A program made the position numbers and the translations under genes. The notes under the pieces are model-generated. The model was not told where the DNA came from. It worked only from the letters and a program-made list of their open reading frames with translations, and ran no database searches. A DNA stretch of 64,000 nt, from positions 54,451-118,450 of the forward strand of contig JAHCKG010000014.1 in the NCBI GenBank assembly GCA_026125895.1. The letters are read 5' to 3'. Below, one piece after another: positions 47,972-50,543 of this stretch (positions within the stretch are counted from its first letter, which is position 1; each line of letters begins with the position of its first letter). Origin of the DNA: Pseudolabrys sp. (GTDB lineage Bacteria; Pseudomonadota; Alphaproteobacteria; Rhizobiales; Xanthobacteraceae).

Positions 47972-49269
47972 CCGGGTTGTTCCCGGTTGCTGCCTTCTTT
48001 CAAGGTCCGGCGCAGGGCATCGACGATTGCCTTAAGGTCGTTGCGATCGTCCTCGGCAGCGATGCTACGACTGCCGGCATTGACGACGAGGCGGAGGTGC
48101 TTCTCAAGCGCGGGGGCTTGTCGGGCGTTGGCCTGGCACAGCAATTGACCGATATTGTCGGCCATCCGGATCAGGATCGCGGGGTTGGCGCTGGCGGCCT
48201 GACGGATCTGATTGAACGCCGCGTCCGTTAGCCCTTCGAAAGTCGAGGTCGGCACGACGAGGCGGACAATGTCTTTGTCGTCGGCAAACCGCGATCGCGC
48301 CGCGCCGCGACTCATGACAAGGCGCAAAGACAGCGACAGGCGGTCGAGTACGGCGATGGCGGTGAAGGGATCGTTGATGCCGGGCGACAGCGCGCGCAGG
48401 GCCACTTCGACCAACTGGTGAACCGAAAATTCGAGATCTTGCACCGAAGTGCGCGTCCGCCCGATGACATAGGCCGATTGCACCGGTTCGGCGAGCTTGT
48501 CCGCCGCGATTTGCGGCGTAACCCGCGCCAGAATTGAGCCCGGTAAGGCGTGTTGACCGGGACGGATTTGTAGTTCGACGAGCGCATTGGCGTCGGCGGC
48601 GCGGTTCACCAGCGTCTCTATGTCGATGGCCTGGACGTAGCCGCCCTCGACGAGAGGGATGGTGGCGCTCGCGATGCCGTCGCCCGGCAGGGGCGGCGGC
48701 CGATCCTCATCTTTCTCGGGCATCAGCCGGGCGATATCCCGATCCAGCGCCTCGCCAACACGATCGATGATGTTATCGGCGATAATGGTGCGGGCGAGGT
48801 GATGGACGAATACCAGCAGCCCGGCGACGCTCGCCAGCACCAGGGCTGTGCCAATGGTGATTGCGAGATTGGCGACGCTGTCGCTGTTGCCATAGACGCT
48901 GCGCAGCACCAGCAACAGATAGACGACGGTCGCAATGAAAAGGCCGAGCGAGACCTGGGTTTGCCGGTCGCTCATGAAATTGCGGATGAGTCGCGGGCCG
49001 AGCTGCTGAGCCGCGAGTGTCAGCACCACCATCGTGATCGAGATAGCCAAGGTCGCCATCGTGATCATGGCGGTGACGAGATTGCCGAGAAACTGCGGCG
49101 CCTGGCTTGCGCTGCCGCTGTAGAGAAACCAGACCGGATCGCTGCCGACATCGAGGTCGGCGTTGAGGGCAAGAATGGCGAGACCGGCGGCCGCAAGCAC
49201 CATCGTCAGCGGCAGGGCCCAGAGACTGGTGCGGATGTTGTCCCAGATCGTGAGCAGGCGGGGGACCAA
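47968..49269 (-). CDS. DUF2254 predicted membrane protein
   Basis: A 433-residue protein: about four membrane segments in the first 165 residues (LWALPLTMVLAAAGLAILALNADLDVG, ITMATLAISITMVVLTLAAQQLGPRL), then a soluble domain with ALSPGINDPFTAIAVLDRLS, the DUF2254 signature. Function unknown. The start codon at 49269 is GUG or AUG-compatible in the frame; the upstream 49300-49325 region is palindromic (GGAACCC...GGTTCC). It is divergent from the metA riboswitch region. Confidence 0.85.
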   Translation of the reverse strand: MVPRLLTIWDNIRTSLWALPLTMVLAAAGLAILALNADLDVGSDPVWFLYSGSASQAPQFLGNLVTAMITMATLAISITMVVLTLAAQQLGPRLIRNFMSDRQTQVSLGLFIATVVYLLLVLRSVYGNSDSVANLAITIGTALVLASVAGLLVFVHHLARTIIADNIIDRVGEALDRDIARLMPEKDEDRPPPLPGDGIASATIPLVEGGYVQAIDIETLVNRAADANALVELQIRPGQHALPGSILARVTPQIAADKLAEPVQSAYVIGRTRTSVQDLEFSVHQLVEVALRALSPGINDPFTAIAVLDRLSLSLRLVMSRGAARSRFADDKDIVRLVVPTSTFEGLTDAAFNQIRQAASANPAILIRMADNIGQLLCQANARQAPALEKHLRLVVNAGSRSIAAEDDRNDLKAIVDALRRTLKEGSNREQPG

Positions 49270-49419
49270 AAGTAGCTCCTATCCAGGGCATCGGTGGGGG
49301 GCGGATGTGGAACCCGCGCGGGCCCTGATCGGTTCCGGCAGCGCCTGGGCCGGTATCCGGGGCTAGTCTCAGGGTCGGGGCCGCCCCCTTGCGACCGCTT
49401 GCGAACCGGCCCTTGAGCG

Positions 49420-49427
49420 TATATTTA
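49420..49427 (+). promoter_or_regulatory. Possible -10 of the metA leader promoter
   Basis: TATATTTA at 49420-49427 with TTGCGA at 49399-49404 (spacing 15-17 nt depending on register). It ends just before the first stem of the riboswitch candidate, so transcription would start at or near the aptamer. Tentative. Confidence 0.3.
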
Positions 49428-49429
49428 TT

Positions 49430-49512
49430 GGCCAACATCAAGAGTTGGGCATCGCCCGACGCCAACCTGCTTCCCGAGCAAGGTGGCGCTCCCCGAAAGG
49501 GAGGATGTGGCC
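49430..49512 (+). ncRNA. SAM-clan (SAM-I/IV-like) riboswitch candidate upstream of metA
   Basis: A complete four-stem layout can be drawn by hand. P1: GGCC-(A)-ACATC (49430-49439) with GATGT-GGCC (49504-49512). After P1 comes AAGAG, the same as the conserved J1/2 of SAM-I. P2: GTTGGGC/GCCCGAC (49444-49450, 49454-49460). P3: GCC-(A)-ACCT-GCT with AGC-(A)-AGGT-GGC (49461-49471, 49477-49487), which resembles the GGCAACC...GGUGC part of SAM-I/IV. P4: CTCCC/GGGAG (49489-49493, 49499-49503). The metA gene follows 68 nt later. SAM-bound P1 would presumably repress; the expression platform is not clear. Confidence 0.72.
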
Positions 49513-49580
49513 GAACCGGCAACGAAACGGGCTCAGTCACAGTCGGTCGCCGCTCACGAGGTTGAGGACCGATTGTATCC

Positions 49581-50543
49581 ATGCCGATCAAGATCCCGAA
49601 CAATCTGCCCGCGCGTTCCATTCTCGAAGCGGAAGGCGTCAGTGTCATGCTGGAGAAGGACGCGGTCCGGCAGGATATCCGGCCGATGCGGATCGGCCTC
49701 CTCAACCTGATGCCCAACAAGGCCAAGACCGAGACTCAGTTCGCGCGTCTGCTCGGGGCCTCGCCGCTGCAGATCGAGATGACGCTCGTCAAGATGACCG
49801 AGCACGTGCCGCGCAACACCTCGGCCGATCACATCGTGTCGTTCTACCGCAACTGGGAAGACGTGCAGGACGAGAAATTCGACGGCTTCATCGTCACCGG
49901 CGCGCCGGTCGAAACGCTGCCGTTCGAGGACGTGACGTACTGGGGCGAGCTGGAGCGCATCTTCGACTGGACGCAGACCAACGTGCACGGCCTGATGACA
50001 ATCTGCTGGGGCGCGCAGGCGGCGGTGCATCGCTTCTACGGCATGCCGAAATACGCGCTCGACAAGAAGATGTTCGGCGTCTACCGGCACCGCATCCTTG
50101 ACCGGACCTCGCCTTATCTGCGCGGCTTCTCCGACGACTTCGCCATTCCGGTGTCGCGCTGGACAGAAGTGCGACGCGCCGACATTCCGCCGCAGAGCGG
50201 CATGAAGGTGCTGATGGAGTCGGACGAGGCGGGCGTGTGTTTGATCGACGATCCGGCACATCGCGCGCTGCACATGTTCAACCACATCGAATACGACAGC
50301 AACTCGCTGGCCGATGAGTACTTCCGCGACCGCGCCGGCAATGTCGCCGTCGAGGTGCCGAAGAACTATTTCCCCGGCGACAATCCCGACGTGCCGCCGC
50401 TCAACCACTGGCGCAGCCACGCGCATCTGTTGTTCGGTAACTGGATCAACCAGATCTACCAGACGACGCCGTTCGACGTCCGCGAGATCGGCGTCAAGTC
50501 GACGGACTGGCGCGCGCCGGCGCGGGCCGTGGCGGCGGAGTAG
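49581..50543 (+). CDS. metA: Homoserine O-acyltransferase MetA (probably acetyl-CoA-dependent)
   Basis: A 320-residue Met[41 protein letters not shown], nucleophile Cys in TICWGAQAA, and the His-Glu pair in FNHIEYDS. It activates homoserine for methionine synthesis. Residue 111 is Glu in TGAPVE; in characterised MetA proteins Glu111 goes with acetyl-CoA and Gly111 (TGAPLG in E. coli) with succinyl-CoA, so the product is likely O-acetylhomoserine. Start has GAGG upstream. Expression is probably controlled by the leader riboswitch candidate. Confidence 0.95.

Follow-up and report, generated by a model that had tools for sequence, protein, structure and literature searches.

The 5′ leader of metA in the 64,000-nt stretch of DNA analysed here (the window) very likely contains a SAM-I/IV riboswitch, which would act as an OFF switch on translation, as judged from its sequence. 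When the entire window was scanned with 4227 Rfam families, a match to RF01725 (SAM-I/IV) was revealed at positions 49430-49536 of the forward strand; it scored 55.8 bits (gathering score 41.1), with an E-value of 1.8e-6. The match covered model positions 1-99, which is the full length of the model. It was the only match in the window above the gathering threshold, and the metA leader was also the only RF01725 match found in the window's genome, which is 82% complete. The original prediction had proposed a SAM-clan aptamer, and of the SAM-I/IV type in particular; the score, well above the threshold, bears out both points as far as sequence can. Inspection of the nucleotides further revealed all four of the nested stems that had been predicted, P1 to P4, at the expected positions, together with the J1/2 segment AAGAG (starting at 49440) and the ACCT/AGGT pairing within P3. 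In contrast, the assumed end of the aptamer at 49512 is too early. The P5 hairpin and the 3′ strand of the pseudoknot PK-2 also belong to it, since the covariance model and the covariation described below both include them; the aptamer therefore reaches 49531, and its distance from the ATG at 49581 is 49 nt rather than 68 nt. The coordinates of all features are given in Table 1.

Table 1. Features of the metA leader and the downstream gene (positions in the window).
Feature	Position	Strand	Basis or remark
SAM-I/IV aptamer, P1 to PK-2 3′ strand	49430..49531	+	RF01725 match (to 49536), covariation, nucleotide sequence
P1 5′ strand ACATC, pairs with 49504-49508 (GATGT)	49435..49439	+	RF01725, covariation, nucleotide sequence
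P2, 7 unbroken pairs, 3-nt loop	49444..49460	+	Covariation, fold, nucleotide sequence
P3 with conserved AA and GGTGG core, ACCT/AGGT pairing	49461..49487	+	RF01725, covariation, nucleotide sequence
PK-2 5′ strand CCCG, in the P3 loop	49473..49476	+	Covariation
P4 hairpin CTCCC/GGGAG	49489..49503	+	Covariation (two-sided changes at 4/5 pairs)
P1 3′ strand GATGT	49504..49508	+	RF01725, covariation, nucleotide sequence
P5 hairpin	49510..49520	+	RF01725, covariation, nucleotide sequence; absent from the single-leader MFE fold
PK-2 3′ strand CGGG, partner of P3 loop 49473-49476	49528..49531	+	Covariation, nucleotide sequence
GTCACA, candidate SAM-free partner of 49506-49511 (TGTGGC)	49536..49541	+	Conserved pairing, putative role
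Hairpin over the ribosome-binding-site region, 10-pair stem 49539-49548/49567-49576	49539..49576	+	Predicted fold
Segment resembling the P2 complement (GTCGGTCGCCGCTCAC), candidate anti-P2 strand	49542..49557	+	Weak in the window (p = 0.265)
GAGGA, likely Shine-Dalgarno sequence, 12 nt upstream of the ATG	49564..49568	+	Nucleotide sequence, predicted fold
metA, homoserine O-acyltransferase	49581..50543	+	PF04204, 424.9 bits

The gene behind the aptamer had been predicted to be metA, and the PF04204 (MetA family) match in Table 1 leaves this assignment standing. The NCBIfam acetyltransferase model NF047918 scored 456.9 bits, slightly below its cut-off of 460.5. For the equivalog model of the succinyltransferase, TIGR01001, the score was 394.4 bits against a cut-off of 495. 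Since both acyltransferase models fell below their cut-offs, the gene is named here at the level of homoserine O-acyltransferase.

To this single-sequence evidence, the predicted fold and a comparison of metA leaders can be added. The minimum free energy (MFE) fold of the leader (49430-49583) contained the core of P1 together with P2, P3 and P4, and had a z-score of -3.0, with none of 200 shuffled sequences as stable. In this fold, computed with a model that leaves out pseudoknots, P1 was lengthened by a GGCC/GGCC pairing at the cost of P5, which remained unformed. The metA leader set comprised 41 sequences, namely the 28 metA-linked RF01725 matches from a scan of 80 MetA loci and the 13 metA-linked ones among 27 RF01725 matches in the window's family, which came from 22 of 198 genomes. 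Removal of two duplicates (L038 and L067, which repeat the leaders of L006 and L011) gave an alignment of 39 leaders; the metA-linked loci L177, L182, L183 and L184, two of them assigned by BLAST and two by eye, and the loci L113, L116 and L117 from the window's genus lie outside this alignment.

As evident from the alignment, P1 to P5 and PK-2 were paired in 96.8% of the cells, compared with a mean of 93.7% in shuffled alignments (0/500 as high), while sliding the structure along the alignment lowered the pairing to 31.9-49.3%. Two-sided changes were present at 11 of the 34 pairs (4.8 in shuffles) and in 55 cells (16.3 in shuffles), and in both cases none of 500 shuffles reached the observed value. 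The covariation that had been called for among orthologous metA leaders was thus found. Further pair types in the aptamer were no more numerous than in the shuffles (19 versus 18.9). In particular, the five pairs of P4 were formed in 99.0% of the cells and four of them showed two-sided changes; PK-2 was paired in 98.1% of the cells, with two-sided changes at two of its four pairs, and its outermost pair was C-G in 18 leaders, U-A in 18 and neither in three. P5 was paired in 91.7% of the cells. The innermost pair of P2 fails in 20 of the 39 leaders and that of P5 in 13, so these stems are one pair shorter in many relatives. The aptamer core agreed with the RF01725 consensus, and most core columns were invariant or nearly so among the 39 leaders. 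The RF01725 score, the covariation in the 39 leaders and the fold z-score of -3.0 together led us to reject chance folding.

The class assignment agrees with the layout of the RNA. According to excerpts of two papers, SAM-I/IV RNAs are defined by a P2 without an internal loop and the lack of PK-1, together with P4, P5 and PK-2 (PMC2864571, PMC6890682), and the presence of P4 separates them from SAM-IV (PMC6890682, in excerpt). In the window, P2 consists of seven contiguous pairs (49444-49450/49454-49460) with a 3-nt loop and no internal loop, which leaves no room for PK-1, and P4, P5 and PK-2 are all present. The crystallised SAM-I/IV RNA is 4L81, whose sequence is printed in PMC5393176; the window's aptamer shares with RF01725 and 4L81 the unsplit P2, P4, P5, PK-2 and the core motifs. 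A MAFFT alignment with the printed 4L81 sequence revealed a similar layout, in which the CAACCUG, GGAU and GGCAA segments aligned, while the P1-P2 stretch of 4L81 was poorly placed and the 3′ side of P3 was out of register. As far as the excerpted descriptions of the class go, the window's element differs from SAM-I/IV in context only, in that it stands before metA in Alphaproteobacteria.

SAM-I (RF00162) and SAM-IV (RF00634) belong to the same Rfam clan as RF01725. Both have a split P2 and form PK-1 from its loop, in contrast to the unsplit P2 and 3-nt loop of the window, and we rejected membership in either class on these structural grounds. In the covariance-model scoring that had been proposed as a check, the SAM-I/IV model was above its threshold. 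A search of the window's genome with RF00162, in which 150 of 244 first-look candidates were scored, gave no match over the cut-off and, at E-values up to 10, listed one match of 17.2 bits, elsewhere in the genome; with RF00634, six sub-threshold matches at E-values up to 10 were obtained from 150 of 1231 first-look candidates, none of them at the metA leader. Besides RF01725, one weaker match from the same clan overlapped the aptamer site in a search of 49200-49700. SAM-II (SAM_alpha, RF00521) shares the gene, the bacterial class, the presumed ligand and the outcome with the window's element, whereas its fold is unrelated to that of SAM-I/IV. No RF00521 match was present among those listed up to E = 10 in 49200-49700, and SAM-II membership was rejected. 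The window's genome does contain one RF00521 match, which lies on another contig (L002, 1501-1579) before a gene for a PLP enzyme of Cys/Met metabolism that is metZ-like. Two unrelated SAM sensors, SAM-I/IV and SAM-II, are therefore found in one pathway of this genome.

The class itself is already known: it corresponds to the "SAM-I-IV-variant" of Weinberg 2010, whose table, as excerpted, gives "several phyla, marine" and whose text describes these RNAs as typically coming from metagenomes (PMC2864571). Among the open-access papers searched, we found no statement on SAM-I/IV before alphaproteobacterial metA. Database annotation of these RNAs is likely to exist, because the RF01725 model finds them readily.

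We next consider how the aptamer would control metA. The original prediction had noted a platform without a T-tract and had favoured translational control over attenuation. A scan of 49280-49600 revealed no terminator-like sites, on which ground an intrinsic terminator was rejected, and a scan upstream found no sigma-70-like promoter. The platform is instead predicted to fold into the 49539-49576 hairpin (-17.8 kcal/mol, z-score of -2.33), in which two of the five bases of the likely Shine-Dalgarno sequence are paired and the rest lie in a bulge. In the 39 metA leaders, the mean platform z-score was -2.18, with 33 leaders below -1 and 25 below -2; a Shine-Dalgarno-like pentamer picked by script, which was not purine-rich in some relatives, had at least three of its five bases paired in 33 leaders. 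By eye, the stem sequences of the platform vary between lineages. Translational control is thus favoured, as had been expected, because the hairpin of the platform overlaps the likely ribosome-binding site and no terminator-like site was found.

These data are best read as a translational OFF switch that responds to SAM, where the direction of control is inferred and SAM is taken as the ligand from the riboswitch class. At low SAM, the ribosome-binding site would be accessible and homoserine acyltransferase would be made. SAM bound between P1 and P3 would lock P1, P3 and PK-2, leaving the downstream segment free to close the hairpin over GAGGA, upon which metA translation would stop. The most likely outcome would be the shutting off of an early enzyme of methionine synthesis when S-adenosylmethionine is plentiful.

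Two other readings keep the same aptamer and change either the mode of control or the ligand. In the former, SAM binding would promote transcription termination, and a Rho-dependent variant has to be invoked because no intrinsic terminator was found. By eye, a T-run follows a hairpin in several SAM-I/IV leaders of genes other than metA, which makes termination a probable option for the class, and Rho might gain access to the RNA when the leader is bound and left untranslated. However, termination at metA is opposed by the empty terminator scan of 49280-49600 and by the position of the platform hairpin, which coincides with the ribosome-binding region in most of the 39 leaders, and we consider it improbable. 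An altered specificity, for example for another compound of the SAM pathway, has a precedent in the spermidine-binding variants documented for SAM-I (PMC10853860, in excerpt). Against such a change stand the agreement of the window's core with the RF01725 consensus, the invariance of most core columns in the 39 leaders and a target gene within the methionine/SAM pathway, which together make it highly improbable. The preferred reading remains the translational OFF switch responding to SAM.

Such a switch would require a competing fold in the SAM-free RNA, and this is the less settled part of the translational reading: a competing fold is proposed, while the model energies give no convincing ON fold for the window's leader. 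By these energies, the hairpin at 49539-49576 stays closed even with the 5′ strand of P1 held open. One candidate, which we regard as possible but a little below an even chance, is that the P1 3′ strand TGTGGC (49506-49511) pairs with the GTCACA segment (49536-49541) in the manner of a SAM-I antiterminator. The two strands form six pairs in the window, and by eye seven in L010 and eight in L117 of the window's genus. Most of the 39 metA leaders have a GYCAC-like sequence in this segment, and 85.5% of the cells pair, compared with 22.6-50.0% when the strands are slid. However, the GYCAC/GTGGC pairing showed no two-sided change and no covariation in the 39 leaders, swapping the partners between leaders left the pairing undiminished, and a duplex test of the P1 3′ strand against the platform gave p < 0.05 in only 2 of the 39. 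Forcing the pairing in the window costs 7.4 kcal/mol, and seven of the ten pairs in the stem of the ribosome-site hairpin persist. As the sole switch, this pairing gained little from the tests.

The other candidate, put forward tentatively, is that the platform captures the 5′ strand and loop of P2 in an anti-P2 helix, which would open both the aptamer and the ribosome-site hairpin. This putative helix, competing between P2 and the expression platform, is the newest point of the analysis. We compared 41 SAM-I/IV leaders of genes other than metA (the A5 set), drawn from the window's family, its class and viral contigs, and found that the loop and 5′ strand of P2 are for the most part complementary to the strand with which the hairpin of the terminator or ribosome site begins. 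In these leaders, the anti-P2 helix was 84.5% paired (81.1% in shuffles, 0/500 as high), with 23 two-sided cells (9.7 in shuffles, 0/500 as high) and two-sided changes at 8 of 10 pairs (5.4 in shuffles, 13/500 as high). In particular, the columns of the P2 loop covaried with the platform (U-A in 27 and C-G in 7 leaders; A-U in 24 and G-C in 6), a pattern that P2 itself does not account for. In the 39 metA leaders, the helix with one bulge was 74.8% paired (70.9% in shuffles, 0/500), with 19 two-sided cells (9.3, 4/500) and two-sided changes at 6 of 13 pairs (3.8, 19/500). By model energies that leave out the pseudoknot and the ligand, the anti-P2 fold was at least as stable as the fold with P1 forced in 9 of the 39 and within 3 kcal/mol in 14, and the ribosome-site region was less paired in the anti-P2 fold in 32. 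The covariation thus appears to support an anti-P2 helix in the 41 leaders, and more weakly in the metA leaders.

Several observations stand against this helix. The window's lineage has a different P2 loop and is without the GCGTC complement of the P2 loop; the window's own pairing was no better than shuffles (p = 0.265), and its anti-P2 fold lies 15.3 kcal/mol above the P1 fold, so that the helix finds little support in the window's own leader. Four leaders outside the 41-row alignment (L015, L019, L021 and L022), which precede a PLP enzyme that we take to resemble L-threonine aldolase, gave support in none (0/4). The numbers of further pair types were not above shuffles (222/500 as high in the non-metA and 141/500 in the metA leaders). 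Additionally, shared ancestry of the rows inflates the shuffle tests, and the columns were picked after exploratory runs, for which reasons the anti-P2 helix is a lead rather than a result.

Three tests on single leaders preceded the fixed columns, and their p-values are descriptive, as segment boundaries were altered after results had been seen. With a truncated P2 segment, p < 0.05 was obtained in 17 of 28 non-metA, 3 of 13 viral, none of four aldolase-type and 5 of 41 metA leaders; with the whole of P2 and a shorter platform, the corresponding counts were 14/28, 6/13, 0/4 and 14/41. An ungapped 10-mer test gave p-values up to 0.05 in 27 of the 41 non-metA and viral leaders. Among the class-level loci, L159 did not fit the expected offset; L162, L166, L170, L172, L177, L179 and L181-L184 fall outside the anti-P2 tests; the fixed-column counts used every row of both alignments. 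In the A5 set, the P2/platform complementarity with its covariation marks a possible general switching helix for the SAM-I/IV class.

The two candidates can be joined in one reading, which we likewise hold as tentative. SAM-I/IV RNAs would switch by a platform strand complementary to the P2 loop and the P2 5′ strand, the SAM-free RNA pulling P2, and not only P1, apart from its exposed loop, while the same strand would otherwise close a hairpin at the terminator or at the ribosome site. The metA leaders, in which this strand may be decayed or reshaped in the window's case, would add a segment that captures P1 and P5, and the riboswitch with metA would form a cassette able to replace a metX/SAM-II pair.

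With respect to distribution, alphaproteobacterial metA had been described as usually being under SAM-II, a premise from which this branch of MetA departs. For the best 80 of 569 MetA relatives in named genomes, a sample rather than a census, the upstream region contained SAM-I/IV in 28, SAM-II in 27 and neither at the gathering threshold in 25; no aptamer core was seen by eye in these last 25 leaders. We mapped the upstream type on a quick maximum-likelihood tree built from 92 MetA proteins, where the presence of SAM-I/IV changed twice, SAM-II three times and neither five times, compared with shuffled means of 30.2, 23.6 and 22.3. In view of so few changes, the upstream sensor type follows the MetA branch. 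The MetA of the window groups with those of six further members of the genus and four named records, including Inquilinus limosus, in a set of 11 rows (SH-aLRT 96), and those of Azorhizobium and Rhodoplanes are placed elsewhere. The identity of the leaders L006 and L038, and of L011 and L067, suggests that Azorhizobium and Rhodoplanes belong to the window's family. The tree, which comes from a short search without species markers, would fit transfer of metA together with its leader.

Within the window's genus, 9 of 43 genomes had a MetA match at E-values up to 1e-30, and in all nine the aptamer core was found by pattern before metA. Six of the nine were without a MetX match of at least 350 bits and three had one, which in one genome (G216) carries an internal stop. 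Strong MetX without MetA was present in 31 genomes and neither in three; these absences are soft, as several of the genomes are incomplete. A SAM-II element was located 169-188 nt upstream of 17 of the 34 strong MetX matches in the genus. The window's genome itself has one SAM-I/IV and one SAM-II match. At the level of the class, RF01725 was found in 35 of 385 sampled genomes.

We also observed SAM-I/IV RNAs before other genes. Two tandem aptamers (L004, 1469-1571 and 1658-1763; genome G194, contig 53) precede a gene with an AAA_5 (MoxR-like) domain, and behind each of them lies a hairpin that covers a purine-rich site. The PLP enzyme behind the four aldolase-type leaders matched Beta_elim_lyase (PF01212; profile match from L021) and is unusual as a methionine-pathway target. 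In four small genomes of 1.3-1.4 Mb (L162, L166, L170 and L172), an ORF that presumably encodes an outer-membrane protein starts about 200 nt after the first base of the aptamer. L176 lies upstream of a methylenetetrahydrofolate reductase gene (PF02219), and the leaders L178 and L180 are very similar to it. Among IMG/VR contigs, 13 apparent SAM-I/IV aptamers were picked by eye from 58 pattern matches, a good many of them apparently chance occurrences within coding regions, so that the set rests on pattern and eye (L186, L203, L204, L209, L214, L216, L218, L220, L224, L228, L229, L231 and L235). The aptamer of L209 stands before an S-adenosylmethionine synthetase gene and that of L216 before a gene for a DUF3293 protein.

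Taken together, the metA leader very probably contains a true SAM-sensing RNA, of a type that has been described but little studied. A class described, in the excerpted account, mainly from marine metagenomes (PMC2864571) is now placed at a central methionine gene in several groups of Alphaproteobacteria. Related metA genes that carry two unrelated SAM sensors offer a natural comparison, and the metA leaders supply alignable SAM-I/IV expression platforms for testing the switching of this class. P2 would be a switching helix if the anti-P2 helix proves correct.
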